A stretch of DNA of 64,000 nt, from the NCBI RefSeq assembly GCF_964204645.1, contig NC_134029.1:16386450-16450449 (forward strand). The letters are read 5' to 3'. The position numbers and the translations under genes are program-made. The notes beneath the pieces were generated by a model, which was not told the DNA's origin, did no database searches, and saw nothing but the letters and a program-made list of their open reading frames with translations. Source of the DNA: Tubulanus polymorphus. Taxonomy: Eukaryota > Nemertea > Palaeonemertea > Tubulaniformes > Tubulanidae. Below are positions 3,470 to 59,974 of this stretch, piece after piece. Position 1 is the first letter of the stretch, and each line of letters opens with the position of its first letter.

Positions 3470-3478
3470 ACCATCCAC
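3470..3478 (+). other. Left target-site duplication, 9 bp
   Basis: ACCATCCAC directly precedes the left inverted-repeat end at 3479. It is repeated exactly, in the same orientation, directly after the right end (16149-16157). Extension by one base on either side does not match, so the duplication is exactly 9 bp. Confidence 0.85.
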
Positions 3479-3581
3479 ACTATCGTGAAGTGAGCCTGTT
3501 ATTCCAGCCTCGTATTCAGATATAGTGTGTACACACTGTATAGCTGCCTGTAGATACTGTTGACATGAAATGTATAACTTA
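3479..3581 (+). repeat. Left terminal inverted repeat of the 12.67 kb element
   Basis: It begins ACTATCGTGAAG. Apart from three mismatches at positions 3-5 it matches the reverse complement of 16045-16148 almost perfectly, with one single-base indel, ending at ATGTATAACTTA. Beyond this the two ends diverge until the satellite arrays begin. Confidence 0.9.
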
Positions 3582-3705
3582 ACACTTTGACCGGACGAAA
3601 CGACGATCATTCAATAAAGTCACCGGGGCAGAAGAGTGATCAATAATTGTTTTATATAATTAAAATGTGTAGTGATTTTCGTAAATTTCATAGATTTTCA
3701 TCGAA

Positions 3706-6700
3706 ATGTATTTTACATCAATTATGCCTGTTAAAATTCAAATATGTCTAAAAGTAAAACAAGGCTACCTGAAAATTAATTTCTCTATTCTTCGTGTTGA
3801 TTTAAAGCAGATGTCTTCATTTGTTCATAGTAAAAAATACGCAATATTTCAACGCACGATTGCATCATGGCTCAACATGTTAACATTAAAATTCAAAATC
3901 AAATTTCTCTAAAACTAAAACCTCAGGGTTCCTGAAAATTAAGTATATTATTAAGGAAACTCTATTCTTTAAGTTGATTTAAGCCAGATGTCTGTGCATT
4001 GATTTGATCATAGTAAAAAAACGCGTTATTTCAATACACGATTGCATCATTGCGTGATATTTAAAAAGTTAAAATTCATAATGAGATTTCTCTGAAACTC
4101 TGAAACCTGAGACTTCCTTAAAATTAAGCATATTAATAAGCACACTCTGATGTAAAGTTGATGTAAAGCAGATGTCTGTGCATTGGTTTGATTATAGTAA
4201 AAAATGCGTCATTTCAATAGACGATAGCATCGTGGCACGATATTCAAAAATTAAAACTAAAAATCAAATTTCTCTTAAACTCAAACCTGAGGATAATTAA
4301 GTTTATTAACTCTAGTCTTTAAGTTGATTCAAGGCAGATGTCTGTGCATTGATTTGTTCATAGTAAAAAAACGCGTCATTTCAATACATGATTGCATCAT
4401 TGCGCGATATTCAGAAATTTAAATTTCAAAAAATAAAATTCCATTAAACTAAAACCTGAGGCTTTCTGAAAATCGAGAATATTATAAAGGAAACTCTATT
4501 ATTAAGGCAGATGTCTGTGCAATGATTTGATCATAGTAAAAAATGCAATATTTCAATACACGACTGCATCAAGGCGCAGTATCTAAAAATTAAAATTCAA
4601 AATCAAATTTCTCTAAAACTAAAACCTGAGGCTTTCTGAAAATCAAGTATATTAATAAGGAAACTCTATTCTTTAAGTTGATTTAAGGCAGATGTCTGTG
4701 CATTGATTTGATCATAGTAAAAAAAACGCGTCATTTCAATACGCGATTGCATCATTGCGCGATATTTAAAAAGTTAAAATTCAAAATCAAATTCCTCTTA
4801 AACTAAAACCTGAGGCTTTCTGAAAATCCAGTATAATATTCAGGAAACTCTATTCTTTAAGTTGATTTAAGGCAGATGTCTGTGCATTGATTTGATCATA
4901 GTAAAAAAACGCGTCATTTCAATACGCGATTGCATCATTGCGCGATATTTAAAAAGTTAAAATTCAAAATCAAATTCCTCTTAAACTAAAACCTGAGGCT
5001 TTCTGAAAATCCAGTATAATATTCAGGAAACTCTATTCTTTAAGATGATTTAAGGCAGATGTCTGTGCATTGATTTGATCATAGTAAAAAAACGCGTCAT
5101 TTCAATACACGATTGCATCATGGCACGATATTCAGAAATTTAAATTTCAAGATTAAATTTCTCTAAAATTAAAACCTGAGGGTTCCTGAAAATTAAGTAT
5201 ATTAATAAGCAACCTCTATTCTTTAAGTTGATTCAAGGCAGATGTCTGTGCATTGATTTGATCATAGTAAAAAAACGCGTCATTTCAATACACAATTGCA
5301 TCATGGCACGATATTCAGAAATTTAAATTTCAAGATTAAATTTCTCTAAAACTAAAACCTGAGGGTTCCTGAAAATTAAGTATATTAATAAGCAAACTCT
5401 ATTCTTTAAGTACATTTAAGGCAGATGTCTGTGCATTGATTTGATCATAGTAAAAAAATGCGTCATTTCAATACACGATTGCATCATGGCGCGATATTCA
5501 GAAATTTAAATTTCAAGATTAAATTTCTCTAAAATTAAAACCTGAGGGTTCCTGAAAATTAAGTATATTAATAAGCAAACTCTATTCTTTAAGTTGATTC
5601 AAGGCAGATGTCTGTGCATTGATTTGATCATAGTAAAAAAACGCGTCATTTCAATACACAATTGCATCATGGCACGATATTCAGAAATTTAAATTTCAAG
5701 ATTAAATTTCTCTAAAACTAAAACCTGAGGGTTCCTGAAAATTAGGTATATTAATAAGCAAACTCTATTCTTTAAGTACATTTAAGGCAGATGTCTGTGC
5801 ATTGATTTGATCATAGTAAAAAAATGCGTCATTTCAATACACGATTGCATCATGGCGCGATATTCAGAAATTTAAATTTCAAGATTAAATTTCTCGAAAA
5901 CCAAAACCTGAGGGTTCCTGAAAATTAAGTATATTAATAAGCAAACTCTATTCTTTAAGTTGATTCAAGGCAGATGTCTGTGCATTGATTTGATCATAGT
6001 AAAAAAACGCGTCATTTCAATACACGTTTGCATCATTGCGCGATATTCAGAAATTTAAATTTCAAGATTAAATTTCTCGAAAACTAAAACCTGAGGGTTC
6101 CTGAAAATTAAGTATATTAATAAGCAAACTCTATTCTTTAAGTTGATTCAAGGCAGATGTCTGTGCATTGATTTGATCATAGTGAAAAAACGCGTCATTT
6201 CAATACACGATTGCATCATGGCGCGATATTCAGAAATTTAAATTTCAAAATCAAATTTCTCTTAAACTAAAACCTGAGGGTTCCTGAAAAGTAAGTATAT
6301 TGATAAGCAAACTGTAGTCTTTGAGATGATGTAAAGCGCATGTCTGTGCATTGATTTGATCATAGTAAAAAAAACGCGTCATTTCAATACACGATTGCAT
6401 CATGGCACGATATTTAAAAAGTTAAAATTCAAAATCAAATTTCTCTAAAACTAAAACCTGAGGCTTTCTGAAAATCCAGTATAATATTCAAGAAACTCTA
6501 TTCTTTAAGTTGATTTAAGGCAGATGTCTGTGCATTGATTTGATCATAGTAAAAAAACGCGTCATTTCAATACACGATTGCATCATGGCGCGATATTCAG
6601 AAATTTAAATTTCAAAATCAAATTTCTCTAAAACTAAAACCTGGGGCTTTCTGAAAATCAAGTATAATATTCAGGAAACTCTATTCTTTAAGTTGACTTA

Positions 6701-6712
6701 AGACAAAAAGAA
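3706..6712 (+). repeat. Left satellite array, ~182 bp unit, about 17 copies
   Basis: The unit is marked by GCAGATGTCTGTGCATTG and recurs near 3806, 3986, 4168, 4336, 4505, 4688, 4871, 5055, 5235, 5420, 5605, 5787, 5969, 6150, 6333, 6528 and 6755. Other unit landmarks are CGATTGCATCATGGCGCGAT and AAAACCTGAGG. Two subtypes can be told apart: one with GTTCCTGAAAATTAAG and one with CTTTCTGAAAATCCAG. The outer and innermost units are most diverged and the middle ones nearly identical, as expected from unequal exchange. Short open frames inside it are not genes. Confidence 0.95.
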
Positions 6713-7002
6713 TTTCTTTTATCTGAATTTTTTAAATATCTATAAGTTGATGTTAGGCAGAAGTCTGTGCATTGGTTTTTACGTGGTATTGCAATAAACA
6801 TTTGCACCATGGAGCGATATTCAAAACGAACACGAACACGTAAAACATAATTAATGAAAATGGCGTTTCATTAAAATTTCTCACGGTTTATACCTCCTTT
6901 CGTTGGCTACTTATATGAAGTAAAATGTAAAAATTTGAAGCAAAGCGAGGAGGCGCTGCACAAACTGCTCTTTCTGGACATATGACTGGCCCTTATAAGG
7001 GC
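6713..7002. other. Inner flank of the left satellite array
   Basis: A decayed last satellite unit runs to about 6800. AT-rich unique sequence without a coding signal follows. Confidence 0.5.
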
Positions 7003-7291
7003 CTATGATACGGGGATAGCTTTTGACCATAACGATGTTGCTGCATTCGATGTCAGCCGAATATACTCAGCCTTATTTTTTAATGCACCTTTATCAATTT
7101 CCTTGTCAATGCTGCTACTGCTGCCGTTGTTTCCGTCATCATCGCTTTCTTCAGAAGCGGCTAACAAAGAGGTTTGCATGGCTTTAACAATATCAGCATA
7201 TGTTATCGGTGAGGATATGGTCGATTCTATGCAACTCGAATTCGATGAGCTGGTCAAATCAACTTCATTTTGAATGTTATTGCAGGATTCC
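7003..7291 (-). CDS. Exon-like ORF, serine/acid-rich C terminus, unidentified
   Basis: Read on the - strand, a TTTGTAG acceptor at about 7292 opens a frame that runs to a stop at 7003, about 95 codons. It carries ITYADIVKAMQTSLLAA followed by a low-complexity segment with EESDDDGNNGSSSS. The composition suggests a disordered, acidic C-terminal tail. I do not recognise a family. It lies inside the 12.67 kb element and could be the last exon of a cargo gene, but no convincing upstream exon was found. Confidence 0.3.
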
Positions 7292-7710
7292 TACAAATAA
7301 ATATTACTATCAGTCACGGTGCAAAAAGTGCAGATCTGTTCGAAAAATACTTATTTTTTGATAGATGGTGTATTGCTGCACTTTACCGAACTTTGATTGT
7401 GTACGGGGACACAGGTAGAACAATTCGAAACCTATATAAATGGCTAAAAATGATACCTTGTTTCTCATCTATAGAGGAAAACTGTATGCCCAAAAGTGAC
7501 CAGGCAGGCAGCATTTTATTTTTATTTTTTCCATAAAAAGTATGAAATTTGACATATTTCCACCAGGCCGGCCTTTCTTTATTTTCATTTCAAAACTGTT
7601 TCCACTGAAATTTTTGAGATAAAAAAGATGTACAGGATATGGTTTTTAGAAGTTCTTACTGTTTGTCAAATACCATTATAGTATACTTGTAGGTCTAGTT
7701 TGATTTCCAG
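7292..7710. other. No gene seen
   Basis: AT-rich interior of the large element. The open frame on the + strand here has no splice support or recognisable features. Confidence 0.4.
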
Positions 7711-7962
7711 ATGTTGGATCATTCATATCTTCCTGTTTTCCCCAATTTTCGAGGGTACGTTAACTATTCAACTATTTTTCTAAATAGCCAGAATGGAAAC
7801 AATAAGCAAGAGACTCTGCCTAGTTTAGCTGCCAAACCTTGGATCATTCCCAACTACCGAGGATTTTTCGCTCATGGCTACAAAGCGTTCTATAGAATAA
7901 GCTTTAGTAAATATCGAAGAAACGCCATTAGTATGGGGAGTTGGCGTGATTCAATCGCATGA
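7711..7962 (+). CDS. Exon-like ORF with repeated PNFRGY/PNYRGF motif, unidentified
   Basis: A good acceptor (TTTGATTTCCAG, ending at 7710) is followed by an 83-codon open frame that starts with ATG and ends at a TGA. The peptide has two similar segments, FPNFRGYVNYSTI and IPNYRGFFAHGYKAF, about 35 residues apart. Paired proline/aromatic motifs of this style occur in small structural proteins, but I cannot name a family. It lies inside the 12.67 kb element. It may be a terminal exon of captured host sequence or a chance frame. Confidence 0.25.
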   Translation: MLDHSYLPVFPNFRGYVNYSTIFLNSQNGNNKQETLPSLAAKPWIIPNYRGFFAHGYKAFYRISFSKYRRNAISMGSWRDSIA

Positions 7963-8939
7963 AAATACTTATTTAGTGCCACGAATTAAATATCTAAAAG
8001 TAAATGAAATTATGAAAATCTCCAAATCCCAGACAAGAATCATCATGAACCAAATATAAATTACCTTATATTTCCAATTTGAATCTGATTTTTAAATTTC
8101 AACTTCAAAAACATTTTTTTTAAATTTCTTTATGAAACAAGAGTTTCGAAAGTCGAAATGATTGAGTGATTAAGTCGAAATGATCGAGTGTATTTCTGTT
8201 AAAAGCAAAGGTGTCCAGACTAATCTAGAAGTCTGGACACCAGTCGACGTTACGGGTTCTGGAACAACGACGATACTACCCAGGAGTGTTGGCGTAGGTT
8301 CAAGTCCCGACCTCACGCTATTCGGCATCTGATTTTAAACAAGTAAATTCATTACCATATACTACTTATATTGACCCACCCGGTCGGTTTTTATCTGCAT
8401 CATAAAAATAAGAAGGTAATAGGCCCGGTCGGCAGCATTTATTTTTATGATTTTTGTCGTACTTTATGGGACTCGGTCGGAGAATGGGAAACAGGGTATC
8501 ATTTTTTGCCTTAAACTGAGAAAATGAAATAATCAATAAATTACTGGTGCAGGTTGATCAAAGGCGAAAACAACAGCAAAATACGCGAAGTTGAGTTTTA
8601 TACCAAACATCATATAATTTACGGGTGAATAACCATGGACAGTGGTAATAACTAGCTTTCTTCAAGCATCAGAGAGGGGATTTAAAATCAGTGGTGATTT
8701 GGAGAGGGGATTATTTCTTAGCCCTTAACACCAGGAGCAGAATTTTCAGCGCAGCACAAGAGCGCATTTTGCTGTCATCACTTTTGGAGTAATAACGCAT
8801 GTGCATTGACTACGAATGCTGCGCAAAGGCTTAATTAACTACTTGTCATCGGCTTCTGCTAATTTGTTGCCCACACCTTGCTATGATCACCTACAGGCCT
8901 ACCTCTACTCTCTTTTGCGGATGCATCCATATTACATAG
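7963..8939. other. Non-coding; contains a 12-bp-arm hairpin and a tRNA-like B box
   Basis: At 8210-8241 GGTGTCCAGACT and its exact complement form a short hairpin. About 55 bp downstream GGTTCAAGTCC (8298-8308) fits a pol III B box, with only a poor A box before it. This may be the head of a decayed tRNA-related SINE. Nothing else is recognised. Confidence 0.4.
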
Positions 8940-9290
8940 TTTGAATCTAATTCAGACGAAGAATCATCATGTAAAGACTGTAATATGATGTACATCGGCG
9001 AAACGGGACGTAATCTTAGTCAGCGTATTAAAGAACACAACATAGATATCCGCACCCAAAAGCCTGAGAGTGGAATAGCAAATCATGTCTTTACAACTAA
9101 TCACCAATTTGACTTTCAGAATTCGAAACTTATTTATCCTTGTAAAGATATTAATAAGAGACACATAGTGGAATCAGCCCTAATATGTAAACTTTCGAAA
9201 TCCAATTTATCTACTAATTTAAATACTGGTTTTTCTCCACATAACCAATTATTATCCAGACACATCAATTCTTTATTAGATTTGGGTTAA
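8940..9290 (+). pseudogene. Penelope-like element GIY-YIG endonuclease fragment
   Basis: The frame reads CKDCNMMYIGETGR, followed by LSQRIKEH and a segment with IANHVFTTNHQFDF, and ends with a natural-looking stop at 9290. The CxxC pair just before YIGETGR and the R..EH helix are the standard beginning of the GIY-YIG endonuclease that forms the C terminus of Penelope-like retroelements. The reverse transcriptase that should precede it is absent, so this is a 5'-truncated copy, as is usual after target-primed insertion. It lies inside the large inverted-repeat element and presumably inserted there later. Confidence 0.85.
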
Positions 9291-9509
9291 TGTCACTATG
9301 TGTCACTCTGTTATCGCCACCCTCTTCAGTCCACTTCACTTAGTTACATAATTTGTTTTTACTCTGAACTGTTTAGAATTGCTGTGGTTTCCACGGTACC
9401 CCTTGATGTTTTATTGCTTGGTCTGTTTATCTTTAGTTTTGACACACTGCTTCTATTTTAGATCCTGTGAGTTTATATGCTTTGTAACTTGTTTTTCTGG
9501 TCATTCCAC

Positions 9510-9545
9510 CTGATGATGGCTGCTAGTCAACAGCCGAAACGTTGT
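9510..9545 (+). other. Hammerhead-ribozyme-like core in the Penelope 3' tail
   Basis: CTGATGA is followed by a stem with arms GGCTG and CAGCC around an 8 nt loop, then GAAAC. This is the layout of the hammerhead core that Penelope-like elements are known to carry. One unpaired base lies between CTGATGA and the stem, and I could not find a convincing stem III/cleavage strand upstream. It is probably a decayed or incomplete ribozyme. Confidence 0.35.
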
Positions 9546-9599
9546 GGTTTCGTAATGATAAATTTGATCGTATAATTTTAAATTCGAAGTGTGAGATTT

Positions 9600-10793
9600 C
9601 TTCATTTATCATCGCTGATATTTATAATGAATTTGTCAACCAAATCATTTGCATTATAAACTGACTTGTGTAATATCAGGGAGGTGGGAGTGAACTCCCA
9701 CCTCCCTGGTGGAGATGCAAGTTATGTGTGTGTAGTTATTCACTCTTGGTGGACGCTGGGCTGCAGTGGGTCAGCACATCTGTGATGGATCATTTGTGTA
9801 GCAGCTATCTGACAGCTCACAGCAGTAGCTGCTCTTTGATATGGAGAAAAAGCCGCACGTCAACTCATTATGAATAGACTTTACATCGTGTTTGTCTTTG
9901 TGTTTGTTTTGATCATTGCGCGCAGTGGGTGACGTCACGCGGAGCGTCCAAACTTAAATGGTCCAAAAGTCTACGAAACCATGAAATCGATACTAAAACA
10001 TATAAACGACCATTCATTTGGCACCAAAAACTTGTTCATGCGTAGCGTACAGACCGCCCCCAACCCGTGACGAAATTTCGCCACAAGGGTAAAGGAGCAT
10101 GGAACTTAACCTTCAGCGATAAAAGAACATTTAACATCATGTGGAAATCGTACATCGAACTTCTGGCAGAAGTGACTTTTAAATCACCATCAAACAGGCA
10201 TAAAATCCGAAAAACCAAGTATCAACTAACACGAATTTCACGCCTGCACGACATTCTTTGTAATTAGTATTAGTAATCACTATCAATATTCATAAGGACT
10301 ATACAGTATAAATGTTTTTACACTAGGCATAGATTGTATCTATTCCTCACATTTCGCTGTGTTTTATCGGTCCGCACTTCTCATCTGAGGGTGTCAGCTA
10401 ATCTCAAATAGACATTCCCATTAAACAGCATGTGTAGGTGAAATAGAATGTTATATTCCATCATTTTCAACGCTTTGGTTATGCGGCAAAATAAATGAAC
10501 AATATACTTCTTTGAACCTAACAATTATTATCCTGATCTTGAAATTATTAAGTGGCTAACTAAAACGTTGGGATTTTTCCACTACATCCTCATTATTCAA
10601 TCATACGTACATGTAACATTGAATCTTTAAACAAAACTACTTCATGGACGTATAAACATTTTTATAAATCATTGATATTATATAATCTTACGTTGCATAA
10701 CTATCAGTTGCGTAAGCAAAAGTCACTGCTCTAACTAGTTTAAGGCGCGCAACAATTTCAAACCAGTTCTTACCAGATTATTACCCGGTTTAC
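9600..10793. other. Region before the esterase gene; one ORF of unknown status
   Basis: A short inverted repeat, GGGAGGTGGGAGT with ACTCCCACCTCCC, lies near 9680-9710. At 10046-10267 a + strand frame without an upstream ATG encodes VTKFRHKGKGAWNLTF and continues to SRLHDILCN before a stop. The same frame is open for about 30 codons before an intervening TAG near 10041. The peptide is basic and not recognised. It could be a broken exon of the cargo gene. The rest shows nothing clear. Confidence 0.3.
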
Positions 10794-11036
10794 ATGAGCG
10801 CGCACACATTCAAAATGAAAACGATACTTTTAAGTGATAGCATGGGTCGTTTTTTCCCGGAATCGGAAAATCATAAGACACATTTTTGGCCAGGAATAGG
10901 CATTGACGTAATGCGTAGAATCGTCGGTGAGAAAATAATTGACGACATAAAATACGCGGACGTTCTCATAGTATGGGTCGGAACTAACGATTTAAACGAA
11001 AATGTTCAACCAAAGGATATAGTAAAGGCATACCAG
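10794..11036 (+). CDS. SGNH/GDSL-type hydrolase, exon 1
   Basis: The first exon of a three-exon esterase-like gene encodes 81 residues from ATG 10794. ILLSDSMG (Ser16) is block I with the catalytic serine (SDS in place of GDS). PGIGIDVMRRIV supplies block II glycines, and VWVGTNDL (Asn65) is block III, the oxyanion asparagine. SGNH hydrolases cleave ester bonds in lipids, polysaccharides or acetyl groups; the substrate here is unknown. The donor after CAG (GTTAGT at 11037) is phase 0. The gene sits between the inverted satellite arrays of the 12.67 kb element. SGNH domains are also known in ORF1 of some CR1/L2 retrotransposons, but introns argue against this being such an ORF. Confidence 0.75.
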
Positions 11037-11120
11037 GTTAGTTACTCAACAGTTTATGCAGAAAATTACAGAAAATTTAAATGACTAAATGACGAATGAC
11101 TAAATTCCTCTTGATACTAG

Positions 11121-11294
11121 TTTTTTTTAGGTTATCTCGCGCTGATGATGCCATCAACCAAAATCCTTCTGTTGCCGATATTTCCACGAAATGATTCAAA
11201 GGTGAAGGATCAGAAGCGGAAGAAAGTTAATAGGTTAACGAAGAAGCTTCTGCGCGAACCCAGGTTCAAAAGGGTTTCCTTCATGAAAACTGAG
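11121..11294 (+). CDS. SGNH/GDSL-type hydrolase, exon 2
   Basis: The reading frame has YLALMMPSTKILLLPIFPRN, which matches the strand after block III in SGNH proteins (a Lys-Ile-Leu-Leu-Leu-Pro strand), then a lysine/arginine-rich segment ending FMKTE before a GTAAAT donor, phase 0. The strong acceptor TTTTTTTTAG would start the exon at 11131 but requires a phase-1 upstream exon, whereas exon 1 ends in phase 0. The weaker acceptor CTAG at 11120 gives the correct phase and adds FFLG. Either the weak site is used or the gene has a frame error here. Confidence 0.6.
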
Positions 11295-12391
11295 GTAAAT
11301 ATATATATTCATGAAATGTATACCGTAAACTAATACCATGTTACAGTTGCCAGCCACCATTTTGTTAGGGTACTTTCATTTGTCCTCTATTGTTTGGTAA
11401 TTATTTCTATTTTAAATATTATTTGTGATGTGTTTTATCATATTTCATTGGCCTGTAGGTGGATTTTGACATTTTGGCAGCATTCAAACATTTCTAGTGT
11501 TTCTCAAATTCGCAACAATGCGACATGAGAATGATAAAAAAACCCGTGGCCAGTTTTTGCCACATGCGTTGGGATTCGAAGTTCGTTATTTTTTGTATCT
11601 CAGCACGGCCCCTGGACTGGCCAGACAAAAAAAATTGTTTTTTACTCCCTGTATACTACTCGACCAATAATTCGAGTAAAACGAGTAAAAATCTGTAACT
11701 GATGGAATTGAATGACACCTTCCATGATTCTGGGGATTATTTCTGATTAAAGGCAAGAACATGGGTAAAAAACTTCCTTGTTTTTATTTTAGGTCCGATT
11801 TTCTTAAAAATTTGAGGGTTAATCAATCTAGTTATAAGAAACGAATTAAAAATTTATCATATTTCCTTTTTACCAAGTAAACAAGTTTTGCTCCGAGTAA
11901 AAACCATTGCCGGTGAAGGCAATTAATTAACAACAGCTTACAAGATAAAAAACACACAGCTGTTATGTTTACATAATTCAGCAGGCTTGTGGTCAGTGAG
12001 TTGATAACTAAGAAGCTCCTCCTCCAAAGTCAATCAAAGTTTGAATTTGCTACGAAAATGAAGAATTCAAAATTACTCCCTATTTGCTGGTTTCTAGAGT
12101 ATTTTTGACTTTTGCAATCATTTATCATCTATAATTGCTCGTAGATTTTAGATAACTGAAAACAAACAAGATACGTATTCCCATGGTTTGAATGCTCCTT
12201 ACATGGCAAAATTCACCTACAAACCAATTAAATATGATAGAACACATCACAAATAATCCTTTAAAAAGAGAAAAAAGTTATCTAACAATAGAGGACAAAG
12301 TTTAGTACCGTACGCTAACAAAAAGGCGGCTAAAATCTGTAAAATGGTATATTTTCAGAGCCTGCATTTTGATTGTGTTGTCTCATTTCAG

Positions 12392-12670
12392 CGTATTTTC
12401 GAAACGAGTCAGAAACGCAAAAACAAAGGAGATCAATTCTCTGTCAAACAAGAATTTTATCGTTTGGATGGGTTGCATTTAAATGATCGTGGAATAGAAC
12501 GCCTGCATCGTTATATTATGCAATACATCAAGGAAAATCTGTCAGCTGACCCCAGAAGTAAGATCGCGGAACGAGTGGAGAGGGCTAATATTGCGCACGG
12601 ACTATGTACCGAGGAGACACCGGGGGATCGAAGTTTTGATTTTGAAGAACCAGATGTTTCGATAGATTAG
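12392..12670 (+). CDS. SGNH/GDSL-type hydrolase, exon 3 (C terminus)
   Basis: After the acceptor TCTCATTTCAG the frame joins exon 2 in phase 0 and encodes 92 residues to a TAG. YRLDGLHLNDRGIERL is block V with the catalytic Asp and His (DxxH), followed by a helix (LHRYIMQYIKENL) and an acidic tail. All four SGNH blocks are therefore present across the three exons, giving a protein of about 230 residues, the usual single-domain size. It lacks a signal peptide. A polyadenylation signal follows at 12872. Confidence 0.75.
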   Translation, partial: RIFETSQKRKNKGDQFSVKQEFYRLDGLHLNDRGIERLHRYIMQYIKENLSADPRSKIAERVERANIAHGLCTEETPGDRSFDFEEPDVSID

Positions 12671-13756
12671 ACTCTAAAATCGAAGAATTCTAGTTCATTA
12701 CACCTACACATCCTGACGTTTCTGATCACACTCCCGGCCCTGCGTTAATGGATTCGGAGCCACTTTTTATCAGGATCGTGAACCACGGATTTTGATGGCA
12801 GCGATGTACACAATATATTAAAGAACTATATATATATAACATTGCAGCTATCATGTAATTGACTTTCCACCAATAAAGTGTTTTGGAAAATGTTTAATTT
12901 TTTCAGCTAGATATATGATCTTTTTTTAGGAAAATGATTTTATTTTTTCAGCTCAATATATGTTGTATATGATGGCTATTATATGAATGTCCCCAAGGAC
13001 GGGAACGTAGATTGAGGGGAGAGGAATATTATGATTTGGGTTCCACTTTTTTAGAAATAAATTGAATGAATAATACAACGTATTATATGATACGCTAGGA
13101 CATTAGACTGGGAGAACTAGGATTATTGAAAACAAGAATAATAGAGTGTATATAGTATAGTTAATGGATTATTATTATTATTAGACTAGAATAACTCTTG
13201 AATATTGGCCTTAAGCCTGGGGGAAAGTGCTCATCAGTGTGAACACTTAAAGACTAGTTTGGATAACAATTCAAGCAAAGCAATTATTCTGACACATTGA
13301 CACTAAAACCTCTCAGCCTCTTGAAACTAAAAAGTTTACATTATACGGATTCTTTTATATTCAATAAAGAAAAAACATATAACAGAACGCGAGCTTTTAT
13401 TTGGATTTATTTTTGGAAGTATCGGAAAGTACAATGTACTTGGTATAAGTCATTATCTACATTTGCCAGAATTGATTTGTTCATTGCACAGTTCAATTCA
13501 AACCCCCATTTTGCGACTTAAAACGGAAAACCTAGCAACAGAAACGTCATCAGAGGAGCGGATACACGTTGGCATAACCAACATTTCACTTTCTGCACGT
13601 TTTTGTTGAGGCAGTAATATGCGCACTGCTGATTCTAAATCAAAACATAGGTGCAAAATACTAAACTAATGAAAGAGGGCGATTTTGATTAATAGACTAC
13701 ATCGACATAATTTCCAGTGAATATCGCTAAACCGTTTATCAATATGTTCGTATTTT
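12671..13756. other. 3' flank of the esterase gene; AT-rich
   Basis: AATAAA at 12872-12877 is a plausible polyadenylation signal for the esterase gene, about 200 bp after its stop. Short runs of TTA/ATT near 13167 and a long AT-rich stretch follow. No further gene is seen before the right satellite array. Confidence 0.5.
12872..12877 (+). terminator. Candidate polyadenylation signal of the esterase gene
   Basis: AATAAA followed by GTGTTTTGG (G/T-rich) lies about 200 nt downstream of the TAG stop. Confidence 0.4.
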
Positions 13757-15985
13757 CAATATTTTCATCAATCATCTTGTTTTAGAGAAATTTAATTTTG
13801 AAATTTAAATTTTTGAATATTCGCGCAATGATGCTTCGAGTATTGAAATAACACCAATTCTTACTATAAACCAATCAATGCAAAGACATCTTATTTACAT
13901 CAACTTGAAGAATAGAGTCATCTTATTGATATAATCGTTTTTTCAGGAAACCCCAGGTTTTAGTTTTAGAGAAATTTGAGTTTGAATTTTTAAATTTTGA
14001 ATATCGCGCAATGATGCAATCGTGTGTCGCAATAACAGGCAATCTAACTATGAACAAATCAATGCACAGACATGCGCTTTACATCAACTCAAAGACTACA
14101 GTTTGCTTATTAATATACTTACTTTTCAGGAACCCTCAGGTTTTAGTTTAAGAGAAATTTGATTTTGAAATTTAAATTTCTGAATATCGTGCCATGATGC
14201 AATCGTGTATTGAAATGACGCGTTTTTTTTACTATGATCAAATCAATGCACAGACATCTGCCTTGAATCAACTTTAAGAATAGAGTTTGCTTATTAATAT
14301 ACTTAATTTTCAGGAACCCTCAGGTTTTAGTTTTAGAGAAATTTGATTTTGAAATTTAAATTTCTGAATATCGCGCCATGATGCAATCGTGTATTGAAAT
14401 GACGCGTTTTTTTACTATGATCAAATCAATGCACAGACTTCTGCCTTGAATCAACTTAAAGAATAGAGTTTCCTTATTAATGTACTTAATCTTCAGGAAC
14501 CCTCAGGTTTTGGTTTTAGAGAAATTTAATTTTGAAATTTAAATTTCTGAATATCGTGCCATGATGCAATCGTGTATTGAAATGACGCGTTTTTTTACTA
14601 TGATCAAATCAATGCACAGACATCTACCTTAAATCAACTTAAAGAATATAGTTTCCTGAATATTATACTGGATTTTCAGAAAGCCTCAGGTTTTAGTTTA
14701 AGAGGAATTTGATTTTGAATTTTAACTTTTTAAATATCGCGCAATGATGCAATCGCGTATTGAAATGACGCGTTTTTTTTACTTTGATCAAATCAATGCA
14801 CAGACATCTGCCTTAAATCAACTTAAAGAATAGAGTTTCCTTATTAATATACTTGATTTTCAGAAAGCCTCAGGTTTTAGTTTTAGAGAAATTTGATTTT
14901 GAAATTTAAATTTCTGAATATCGCGCCATGATGCAATCGTGTATTGAAATGACGCGTTTTATTACTATGATCAAATCAATGCACAGACATCTGCCTTGAA
15001 TCAACTTAAAGAATAGAGTTTCCTGAATATTATACTGGATTTTCAGAAAGCCTCAGGTTTTAGTTTTAGAGAAACTTGATTTTGAATTTTAACTTTTTAA
15101 ATATCGTGCCATGATGCAATTGTGTATTGAAATGACGCGTTTTTTTACTATGATCAAATCAATGCACAGACATCTGCCTTAAATCAACTTAAAGAATAGA
15201 GTTTCCTTATTAATATACTTGATTTTTCAGAAAGCCTCAGGTTTTAGTTTTAGAGAAATTTGATTTTGAAATTTAAATTTCTGAATATCGCGCCATGATG
15301 CAATCGTGTATTGAAATGACGCGTTTTATTACTATGATCAAATCAATGCACAGACATCTGCCTTGAATCAACTTAAAGAATAGAGTTTCCTGAATATTAT
15401 ACTGGATTTTCAGAAAGCCTCAGGTTTTAGTTTTAGAGAAACTTGATTTTGAATTTTAACTTTTTAAATATCGTGCCATGATGCAATTGTGTATTGAAAT
15501 GACGCGTTTTTTTACTATGATCAAATCAATGCACAGACATCTGCCTTGAATCAACTTAAAGAATAGAGTTTGCTTATTAATATACTTAATTTTCAGGAAC
15601 CCTCAGGTTTTAGTTTTAGAGAAATTTAATTTTGAAATTTAAATTTCTGAATATCGCGCCATGATGCAATCGTGTATTGAAATGACGCGTTTTTTATTAT
15701 GATCAAATCAATGCACAGACATCCGCTTTACATCAACTTAAAGAAAAGAGTTTCCTTAATATTATACTCGATTTTCAGAAAGCCCCAGGTTTTAGTTTGA
15801 GAGAAATTTGAGTTTGAATTTTTAAATTTTAGATATCGTGGAATGATGCAATCGTGAGTTGAAATGATACCTGAACAAATCGATGCACAGACATTTACTT
15901 TATATATCTACTTGAACAATCGAGCCTACTCAGTAATATACTCAGTTTTTACGAAACCTGGAGTTTTTGTTTCAGAGAAATTTGA
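13757..15985 (-). repeat. Right satellite array, same ~182 bp unit inverted, about 12 copies
   Basis: The reverse complement of the left-array unit (CAATGCACAGACATCTGCC as marker) recurs near 13885, 14067, 14250, 14433, 14615, 14798, 14985, 15167, 15352, 15537, 15718 and 15890. Both subtypes of the left array are present. Outer units are strongly decayed, inner ones nearly identical. With the left array it forms an inverted pair able to fold into a very large stem. Confidence 0.95.
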
Positions 15986-16044
15986 GTATCAGTATCCGAT
16001 GCTATATACTAACGTTTACGTTAGTTATCATCGCTCCGTCATGC

Positions 16045-16148
16045 TAAGTTATACATTTCATGTCAACCAGTATCTACAGGCAGCTATACAGTGTGTACAC
16101 ACTATATCTGAATACGAGGCTGGAATAACAGGCTCACTTCACGTAGGT
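16045..16148 (-). repeat. Right terminal inverted repeat of the 12.67 kb element
   Basis: Its reverse complement begins ACCTACGTGAAGTGAG and follows the left end for about 103 bp. It ends exactly where the 9-bp duplication ACCATCCAC begins. Confidence 0.9.
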
Positions 16149-16157
16149 ACCATCCAC
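16149..16157 (+). other. Right target-site duplication, 9 bp
   Basis: ACCATCCAC is identical to 3470-3478. The pre-insertion sequence would have been a single copy between GATTTCA and CATGTTG. Confidence 0.85.
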
Positions 16158-16211
16158 CATGTTGTTTCATTAATAAAACAATTGTTGCGCGCCGGCGCTG
16201 TACTGTGATAA

Positions 16212-16285
16212 CGCATGGTTTCACTAGGATTCGAACCCTCGCCCTCTCAGTTGGGAGTTAAACACCTTATCCACCATGCCACAGG
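16212..16285 (-). mobile_element. tRNA-related sequence (SINE head or tRNA pseudogene)
   Basis: On the - strand an A-box-like TGGTGGATAAGG (16265-16276) is followed at normal spacing by a B box GGGTTCGAATCCT (16226-16238). The D and T arms are suggestive, but the anticodon stem and acceptor stem do not pair, so a functional tRNA is unlikely. It sits just outside the large element. Confidence 0.45.
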
Positions 16286-16568
16286 ACAGGACGCTCTTTT
16301 TATCGTTAGTGGGAGTACCGGACGGGGCGAGTCGCGATTGCTACTATCATCCGGTGTTATCTTTCAGTAAGTAATTTTAAGTTTAAAATAGGACGGAGAG
16401 TGCATAGGTATAATCTACGCGGAGCGAATGCGTGTTATATTACTATCAGAATTCTACATTTCAATTAGAAGCAGTTAGTTGTCGAATCTGATAGAAGATG
16501 AATTTTATGTGCGAAAAAAAAGTGGAAAATATGTAAATAATAATAATAACAATCAACAGAATTACAAA

Positions 16569-32734: not shown

Positions 32735-33314
32735 TATGATTGTGGTGAGTTTCAAGGCCACCACTCACCAGGGGGATTGAATTATACGATAACTTAATAT
32801 TTCTATATTATATTTGTACCTACGCATATTTTGTTACCACAATCAATTGCAAAGTTGTAGCTCATGACATCGTCTATGATTGTGGTGAGTTTCAAGGATA
32901 TCAGTTATTCTATATGATCACCAGGGGGCGTTGAATAGTAGAATAACTTAGTATTTCCTTATAAGATTGGTACCTAGGCAAATTTTGTTACCATGATCAA
33001 TTGCAAAGTTGTAGTTCATGACATGTTCTATGATTGTGGTGAGTTTCAAGGTCATTGGGTTTTGCATATGGTCACCAGGGGGCGTTGAATAGTAGAATAA
33101 GTAAGTATTTCCATATTAAATTGGTAACGAGGCATATTTTGTTATCACAATCAATTACAAAATCATAGCTGCTGACATATTCTATGATTGTGGTGAGTTT
33201 CAAGGTCATTGGTTTTTGAATATGGTCACCAGGGGGCGTTGAATATTGAAATTGTTAGATTGATGAGCACTTAAAACCACTTCCCAAGTGGCCATTGTGT
33301 CCCTGGACCCCTAG
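32735..33314 (+). mobile_element. 3' part of a hairpin-ended element with ~130 bp internal repeats
   Basis: Four copies of a unit with TTCTATGATTGTGGTGAGTT and CACCAGGGGGCGTTGAATA are followed by the shared 3' end CCACTTCCCAAGTGG...CCCCTAG. The same 3' end closes the fuller copies at 55552-56806 and 58702-59974. The 5' hairpin part is missing here. Confidence 0.8.
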
Positions 33315-55551: not shown

Positions 55552-56806
55552 TTTTTAGCTCCGCGGTGACCGAAGGTCAGCGGAGCTGATGGGTTAGGGG
55601 GATTGCGTCCGTCCGTCCATAGACGGAATCCAGTTATTTTGGGAAGTTTTGAAGACGCTTCAATGTAATGTCTTGATATTTGGTTTATAAATGTATCTAC
55701 CCTAGACACATCTTCAGCCCAAAAACTGGCCCTGTCAGAATCAAGATGGCCGACTGGCAGCCATTGTTGCTCGCCAAAATCGGCACTTTTTACACGTTTT
55801 TGAACTTTTTGAGGGAAATTTTGAAGACGCCTTGATCAATTACCTTGATCTTTCGTATGTATTTGACCCCCCCAGGGCCCATCAGCATAACAAAAATTGG
55901 GTCGATCGGACTCAAGATGGCCGCCCTAGGACCTTTTCAGTGCCCAAAAATGTCAATTTTGGTCCGAATTCCGAGTCCTGTAGCTTCCTACTGATGTGCC
56001 ATTTCTCATTGTAACTGCTGATGGGTATTCTTTGGTAAGGGATGTTTTATACCTGAGACAGGTATTTTTGATCAGCTAACTATGATGCAATTGGCAGCCA
56101 TCTTGGTGTCATCAGTACTCATTCGTAGGTGGGAAAAAGTTTTTTGACTTTATATTGATACCTAAGCATATTTTGTTATGACAATGAAATAGAAAGTTGT
56201 AGCTTATAACGTGTTCTATGATTGTGGTGAGTTTCAAGGTCATTAGTTTTGGTATATGGCCATTAGGGGGCGTTGAATAATACAATATCTTAGTATTTCT
56301 ATATTATATTTGTGCCAATACATATTTTGTTGCCACAATCAATTGCAAAGTTGTAGCTCATGACATTGTCTATGATTGTGGTGACTTTTAAGGAAATTAG
56401 TTATTCTATACCAGGGGGTCACCAGGGGGCGTTGAATAACCTAGTATTTCCTTATTATATTGGTACCTAGACATATTTTGTTACCATGATCAATTGCAAA
56501 GTTGTAGTTCATGACATGTTCTATGATTGTGGTGAGTTTCAAGGTTATTGGGTTTTGAATATGGTCACCAGGGGGCGTTGAATAGTACAATAACTTAGTA
56601 TTTCCATATTAAATTCGTAACAAGGCATATTTTGTTATCACAATCAATTACAAAATTGTAGCTGCTGACACGTTCTATGATTGTGGTGAGTTTCAAGGTC
56701 ATTGGTTTTTGTATATGGTCCCCAGGGGGCGTTGAATATTGAAATTGTCAGATTGTTGAACATTCGAAACTACTTCCCAAGTGGGCATGGTGTCCTGGAC
56801 CCCTAG
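55552..56806 (+). mobile_element. Hairpin-ended element with internal minisatellite, copy A
   Basis: It starts with TTTTTAGCTCCGCGGTGACC folded with GGTCAGCGGAGCT. It continues with GTCCGTCCGTCC and GAATCCAGTTATTTTGGGAA, then about five ~130 bp repeats (ATGATTGTGGTGAGTTTCAA ... CCAGGGGGCGTTGAATA). It ends TACTTCCCAAGTGGGCATGG...CCCCTAG. No coding capacity. The right part of the 5' hairpin reappears inverted at 57287-57299, so the true end may lie there. Confidence 0.8.
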
Positions 56807-58701: not shown

Positions 58702-59974
58702 TTTTTAGCCCACTTGGGACTTTAGTCCCAGCGGGCTATTGCGTTCACTTTTCGTCCGTCATCCGTCCGTCCGTCCGTCCGTCCGTCGACGGAATCCAGT
58801 TATTTTGGGAAGTTTTGAAGATGCTTCAAGGTAACGTCTTGATATTTGGGTTACACATGTATCTACCCTAGACACATCTTCAGCCCAAAAACTGGCCCTG
58901 TCAGAATCAAGATGGCCGACTGGCAGCCATTGTTGTTGGCCAAAATCAGCACTTTTTACACATTTTTGAACTTTTTGAGGGAAATTTTGAAGACGCTTTG
59001 ATCAATTACCTTGATCTTTTGGATATATGTGAATCCCCCCAGGGCCCATCAACATAACAAAAATTGGGTTGGTCGGACTCAAGATGGCCGTCCTATGACC
59101 TTTTTAGTGCCCAATAATGTTGATTTTGGCCCGAATTCTGAGTCCTGTAGCTTCCTACTGGTTTGCCATTTCTCATTACAATTTCTGATGGGTGTTCTTT
59201 GGAAAGGGATATTTTATACCTGAGACAGGTATTTTTCATCAGCCAATTATGACGCAATTGGCGGCCATCTTGGTGTCACCAGTACTCATTTGTAAGTGGG
59301 AAAAAGTTTTTCCACATTATATTGATACCTAAGCGTATTTTGCTACCACAATCAATAAGAAAGTTGTAGCTCATAACGTGTTCTATGATTGTGGTGAGTT
59401 TCAAGGTAATTGGAATTTGTATATGGCCACCAGGGGGCGTTGAATAATACAATATCTTAGCATTTCTTTATTATATTCGTACCTATGAATATTTTGTAAC
59501 CACAATCAATTGGAAAGTTGTAGCTCATGACATCATCTATGATTGTTGCGAGTTTTAAGGACATAAGTTTTTCTATATGGTCACCAGGGGGCGTTGAATA
59601 GTAGAATAACTTAGTATTTCCTTATTATATTGGTACCTAGGCATATTTTGTTACCATGATCAATTGCAAAGTTGTAGTTCATGACATGGTATGATTGTGG
59701 TGAGTTTCGAGGTCATTGGGTTTTGAATATGGTCACCAGGGGGCGTTGAATAGTAGAATGACTTAGTATTTCCATATTAAATTGGTAACGAGGCATATTT
59801 TGTTATCACAATCAATTCCAAATCGTAGCTGCTGACATGTTCTATGATTGTGGTGAGTTTTAAGGTCATTGGTTTTTGTAAATGGTCACCAGGGGGCTTT
59901 GAATATTGAAATTGTTAGATTGTTGAGCATTTGAAACCACTTCCCAAGTGGGCATGGTGTCCCTGGACCCCTAG
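58702..59974 (+). mobile_element. Hairpin-ended element with internal minisatellite, copy B (complete, 1273 bp)
   Basis: The 5' end is TTTTTAGCCCACTTGGGACT with hairpin partner AGTCCCAGCGGGCT, then (CCGT)n. The body matches copy A. About five ~130 bp repeats lead to the 3' end CCACTTCCCAAGTGGGCATG...CCCCTAG. The 5' GCCCACTTGGGA and 3' TCCCAAGTGGGC are inverted 12-mers. A 3' hairpin before a CTAG end, matching inverted subterminal motifs and an internal minisatellite are features of Helentron-associated non-autonomous elements (HINEs). Class assignment is inference. Confidence 0.75.

Follow-up and report, generated by a model that had tools for sequence, protein, structure and literature searches.

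The 64,000-nucleotide stretch of DNA analysed here (the window; C5:16386450-16450449 of the 267.8 Mb assembly that was scanned) comes from Tubulanus polymorphus, a ribbon worm of the Palaeonemertea (Nemertea), and contains, at positions 3479-16148, an element of 12,670 bp. The element is bounded by terminal inverted repeats, one on the plus strand at 3479-3581 that starts ACTATCGTGAAG and one on the minus strand at 16045-16148 that, read inward, starts ACCTACGTGAAG. The two align over ~104 bp: the outermost five bases are unlike (ACTAT on the left, ACCTA on the right, read inward), and in the remainder 98 of 99 columns agree, the sole difference being one inserted base. Directly outside both ends (3470-3478 and 16149-16157) lies the same nine-base sequence, ACCATCCAC, a match that is destroyed by a one-base shift in either direction. 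An earlier reading of the window (the first-pass annotation) had described these inverted ends and a perfect 9-bp duplication outside them, and both are present.

Just inside the terminal repeats are subterminal stretches that are shared with other copies of the element, with 98-100% identity at six other left ends (3582-3782, plus strand) and 99-100% identity at the right ends of the other paired copies (15868-16044, minus strand). These are followed by the inverted satellite arrays that the first-pass annotation had also reported, built of a 183-bp unit repeated 16.1 times on the left (3783-6702) and 11.4 times, in inverted orientation, on the right (13779-15867); in one example the two arrays are 97% complementary across 556 nt. 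Among the matches listed (of 239), the 183-bp unit is found in the element copies and a few other places. If the arrays are counted in with the ~104-bp ends, the inverted part of the element measures 2-3 kb.

The interior contains a predicted three-exon gene for an SGNH hydrolase on the plus strand. Exon 1 (10815-11036) includes the SDSMGR and GTND blocks and exon 3 (12392-12670), which ends at the stop codon, the DGLH block, all recognised by eye; exon 2 lies at 11121-11294 and the exon borders are of the GT-AG type. The predicted product is 224 amino acids long with the NCBI splice (222 under the alternative splice that was first used) and matches Pfam Lipase_GDSL_2 above the cut-off (E 6e-9) and, in a search of solved structures, PAF acetylhydrolase Ib (E 1e-6). 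Residues 33-224 are identical to the 192 amino acid NCBI protein LOC141906112 [Tubulanus polymorphus], annotated as "uncharacterized", and in a protein search this, the species' own protein, was the sole confirmed match (1 of 247 candidates). The gene had been read in this form by the first-pass annotation and, judged by its sequence, appears to be real. The same annotation saw no transposase in the window, and here it needs correction: the minus strand at 7018-7290 carries the first 91 codons of a 1,758-codon stop-to-stop transposase frame, the rest of which is deleted.

Whether the element is mobile can be judged from its occurrence elsewhere in the genome. The first-pass annotation had held that a mobile element should have further copies of its 103-bp end, and at least 40 scored matches to this end (71 candidates) were found, 12 of which form six inward-facing pairs, copies A-F. 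Five of these pairs are each flanked by a perfect 9-bp duplication, with a different sequence at each locus: copy A, the window element on C5 (12.7 kb, ACCATCCAC), copy B on C1 (15.1 kb, TTTTTTTCT), copy C on C2 (12.8 kb, ACATTATAG), copy D, also on C2 (26.1 kb, GGCGCAAGC) and copy E on C4 (27.3 kb, AGATTACTG). When the flanks of A-E were cross-paired as a chance control, the best of 20 trials matched at 6 of 9 bases. The expectation that each full copy would show such a duplication therefore holds for five of the six pairs and fails for copy F on C10 (5.5 kb), a rearranged fold-back copy whose two flanks are duplicates in inverted orientation (94% across 657 columns). Two further end matches, on C3 and C17, lack a partner within the 40 scored. 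The remaining 26 are likewise unpaired, and all nine of those inspected have one and the same outer flank (one-base variant), so that they represent a right-end piece carried inside another repeat.

Further evidence comes from sites that lack the element. When the flanks of the window element were joined with a single ACCATCCAC and used as a query, all 40 scored matches (260 candidates; 93-98%) spanned the junction; 39 of these cover all 300 bases and one covers 3-300, and 25 are exactly 300 bases long. At L027, the one paralogous empty site that was read out, ACCATCCAC is present once only. It follows that the element inserted into a dispersed repeat, and that the window element transposed as a unit. 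These data also bear on the proposal that no transposon is involved and that the structure is either an artefact of assembly or an inverted segmental duplication. Long inverted satellites are indeed hard to assemble, and since the exact array lengths rest on the assembly some may be wrong, but five loci with perfect, mutually different 9-bp duplications and an uninterrupted site in all 40 scored matches make this explanation extremely improbable and, for the element as a unit, have already refuted it. A check for wrongly joined halves, raised by the first-pass annotation, has the same outcome, as the empty site shows that they are joined correctly.

Copies D and E, at 26-27 kb the longest, look autonomous and are relatives with a transposase of the kind that the first-pass annotation had proposed to look for. 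Both contain, unbroken, the giant 1,758-codon frame, which has a PHD-UCH-DDE-Ulp1 domain order, and on the opposite strand the SGNH hydrolase gene. The PHD finger of the transposase protein scores above the cut-off (PF00628, E 7e-6, residues 323-370) and the D, D, E triad is invariant in nine of nine aligned transposase sequences. The DDE core spans residues ~990-1450 of the frame in D, and a structure of the DDE part predicted from these nine sequences reached pLDDT 68 and pTM 0.66 (from three sequences, pLDDT was only 36), and the structure-search list for this model was filled by transposase and integrase cores, consistent with a DDE transposase. Relatives of the transposase were sought in IMG/VR viral contigs, where none of 18 pattern matches was confirmed by tblastn. 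Beginning 15 bp beyond the stop codon of the frame is a minisatellite with a 101-bp unit, repeated 30 times in D and 37 times in E.

Comparison with D reveals how the window copy has been shortened. Copy A matches D in pieces, first along a stretch beside the left array and then, after two jumps, in the half containing the SGNH gene. The first jump skips the 101-bp array, which is missing from the window copy, together with all of the transposase except its first 91 codons; the second skips 4.7 kb that are complete in D and E and partial in C. The same deletion form is found in A and B, which lie at different sites and differ from each other at only 7 of 7,077 interior bases and 7 of 3,224 bases in the left ends with arrays. 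The right array of B is, however, longer than that of A by 2,381 bases (13 unit lengths), although the leading 1,084 and the final 925 bases match exactly; because array length differs whilst the other sequence is near-identical, the arrays resize and the rest hardly changes. The breakpoints of C are unlike those of A and B, and F has lost the transposase side as well as the first part of SGNH exon 1. In all, three different deletion forms (A/B, C and F) have lost the transposase and kept the inverted ends, with the SGNH gene retained whole in A/B and C and in part in F.

The first-pass annotation inferred that the element had mobilised the SGNH gene with it, and proposed to compare copies to see whether the gene is constant cargo. 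The gene is present in all six paired copies and is intact through the DGLH block in five of them (A-E); only its tail is altered, by a one-base deletion in C and a replacement in E. Since the six include D and E, the SGNH gene is a standing gene of the element family and was not picked up by this copy. A rival view is a Pack-MULE-like event, in which a non-autonomous element recently captured an SGNH gene of the host within its inverted ends as a passive passenger. Gene carriage by Mutator-like elements is known (PMC6431247) and the SGNH gene has introns, as host genes do, but its presence in both long-frame copies argues against recent capture, as does its distribution in the genome: 18 of 20 scored matches (40 candidates) lie inside element copies, and the other two are weak (54% identity over 47 amino acids, 43% over 54) and lie on C7 beside Polinton-type integrase and packaging-ATPase-like genes. 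We therefore consider recent capture unlikely. Capture long ago, with the gene resident in the family ever since, would agree with the explanation favoured below.

Moderate evidence from sequence divergence suggests that the SGNH gene is under selection. With the window copy as reference, differences in the exons (222 amino acid splice) were compared with those in the noncoding DNA between 8906 and the right array. The exons have changed less in D (1/669 versus 59/4187, p 0.002), E (0/621 versus 28/3090, p 0.009), C (3/668 versus 58/4197, p 0.04) and F (3/537 versus 44/2280, p 0.02), with p values that come from copies related to one another; B shows no contrast (1/669 versus 5/4205). Leaving out the downstream region weakens the effect (p 0.048 for D, 0.009 for E, 0.26 for C and 0.07 for F). 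The SGNH protein would then be an element-encoded accessory enzyme kept by selection, rather than passing host cargo.

Which group of transposons does the family belong to? The closest published description is that of Rehavkus, a group that includes Rehavkus-1_TC and Rehavkus-1_HR. Its elements, known from arthropods and annelids, duplicate 9 bp of the target, encode a PHD finger and have a minisatellite ahead of the 3' inverted repeat; they are tabulated with terminal inverted repeats of 26-400 bp and one ORF (PMC6446971). A length of 9.5 kb and inverted termini that include a 164-bp satellite are given for Rehavkus-1_TC from Tribolium (PMC10218199), and recent work on transposons, in which Rehavkus serves as an outgroup, places it in the MULE superfamily (PMC13359780). 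The Tubulanus family resembles these elements in its 9-bp duplication (five of six paired copies and the empty site), the PHD finger of its transposase protein, the minisatellite between the transposase frame and the 3' inverted repeat in D and E, and, as in the account of Rehavkus-1_TC, satellite monomers in the inverted termini, here the 183-bp arrays. Against the tabulated values, the ~104-bp ends are in range, the inverted part reaches 2-3 kb with the arrays and there is a second gene. Further differences from the published descriptions are the length of the long copies (26-27 kb against 9.5 kb for Rehavkus-1_TC), the UCH and Ulp1-type protease domains that accompany the others in one frame, the spliced SGNH gene beside the single tabulated ORF, and the nemertean host. 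As four of five tested structural marks are shared, and the comparison is one of structure rather than sequence, we use only the name "Rehavkus-like". Very probably, then, the window element derives by internal deletion from a Rehavkus-like (Mutator-related) cut-and-paste DNA transposon and is itself non-autonomous. The first-pass annotation, which proposed a non-autonomous Mutator-type or FB-type carrier, was right that the element is mobile, non-autonomous, probably Mutator-related and has an intact spliced gene aboard; that this copy captured the gene does not stand.

Long inverted repeats made of tandem units are described also for Foldback/Galileo and Drosophila FB elements (PMC3573991, PMC3688188), and this likeness, together with the rearranged fold-back copy F, could suggest a Foldback/Galileo-type element of the P superfamily. 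Galileo has a P-type transposase. We regard assignment to that superfamily as highly improbable. For the Rehavkus-like family, a plausible scheme is that the long copies supply a transposase in trans, which would recognise the common ~104-bp ends and make 9-bp staggered cuts, and that the inverted satellite arrays serve as long, fast-resizing subterminal regions, perhaps as rows of protein-binding sites. The last suggestion is reasonable by analogy, because the repeat-built long ends of Galileo are reported to have several transposase-binding sites (PMC3688188).

The window element is a shortened member of a gene-owning family, not a gene-collecting carrier. Helitrons, which are rolling-circle elements, are not known to have terminal inverted repeats or target duplications. 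Those of fish travel with texim genes, SGNH genes with several introns that are related to PAF acetylhydrolase, for which the authors weigh two ideas, a helper in transposition or a useful cargo (PMC4021074). An SGNH passenger thus has a precedent in kind, alike by description in being a multi-intron, PAF-acetylhydrolase-related gene on a DNA transposon, in an association that the source reports in fish only (PMC4021074). GDSL/SGNH esterases are also reported as encoded by Terminons (PMC6431247) and CR1 elements (PMC4021074), which are mobile too but are retroelements, not cut-and-paste DNA transposons. Pack-MULEs share Mutator-type ends enclosing non-transposase genes, and are described as carrying gene fragments and as being mostly 1-2 kb long themselves (PMC6431247), whereas here the SGNH gene is complete and is shared by the two copies that have the transposase frame.

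The first-pass annotation took the element to be of an undescribed type. Its end structure has been published for Rehavkus and SGNH genes are moved by fish Helitrons, so that the novelty, relative to the published descriptions covered, lies in the phylum, in the set of domains, which combines protease domains of both the UCH and the Ulp1 type in a transposase protein, and in the co-transposing SGNH gene. The parts of the open-licence literature covered show neither a Rehavkus or MULE element with an SGNH gene nor any such element in nemerteans. Relative to the published host list of arthropods and annelids, the Rehavkus-type design is extended to a further phylum, and one genome displays the series from long copies that are unbroken, through several distinct deletion forms, to a young pair, the same spliced gene being present throughout. 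The reason for which mobile elements have SGNH/GDSL esterases can now be tested in a DNA transposon with intact copies. One tentative answer, which we think possible although not probable, is that selection at element level keeps the SGNH gene as a functioning accessory gene, and that animal mobile elements of unrelated kinds (CR1, Terminons, fish Helitrons, the Rehavkus-like family and possibly a Polinton in the same genome) have repeatedly recruited PAF-acetylhydrolase-like SGNH enzymes since cutting lipid esters might help them to spread, in germ cells or across membranes, for instance.

A GIY-YIG-like frame on the plus strand at 8940-9290 is also part of the window element and recurs in copies B-E, with a Pfam GIY-YIG score just under the cut-off (E 3e-4). 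The idea that it is a second accessory gene was weighed but not retained; we take it to be the probable remnant of a Penelope-like retroelement, the tail of which may reach about 9570.

Within the three-exon SGNH-hydrolase gene of the element (window 10815-12670, plus strand), intron 2 contains a pair of inverted repeats, at window 11333-11489 and 12186-12350, that are approximately 79% identical to one another. Copies B, C, D, E and F contain matches to this pair as well, and the pair has the appearance of a small nested inverted-repeat element. Stretches akin to exon 2 plus exon 3 of the SGNH gene are seen elsewhere in the same genome, on a different contig (G000:C7 10200050-10211389; L048, L049 and L047), where the neighbouring genes are of Polinton type, comprising an rve integrase and a Pox_A32-like packaging ATPase. 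These stretches possibly represent an SGNH gene within a second, unrelated kind of element.

In copy D, one of the two long copies with a transposase frame, a frame of 107 amino acids (L014:1815-2138) is located between the transposase and the SGNH side; no Pfam family scored above cut-off against it. Copy F (L020:1000-8200) is rearranged, its two flanks being inverted duplicates of each other (94% over 657 columns), and this copy lacks a target duplication.

Pieces of the element's right end, each of ~280 bp, are contained in another repeat at L024, L025, L026, L027 and L028. The outer flank of the piece is the same, apart from a one-base variant, at all nine places inspected and, at L027, a 31-bp satellite follows the piece.

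In the right flank of the element, a tRNA-like stretch (GGATTCGAACCC...) was recognised by eye at window 16200-16290 and is perhaps a SINE; ARAGORN identified no tRNA genes in the window. A second minisatellite family, with a 154-bp unit, forms three arrays in direct orientation (window 32765-33245, 56150-56739 and 59305-59905), and the region at 55.6-56.2 kb of the window resembles that at 58.8-59.3 kb, with a spacing of 3,167 bases.
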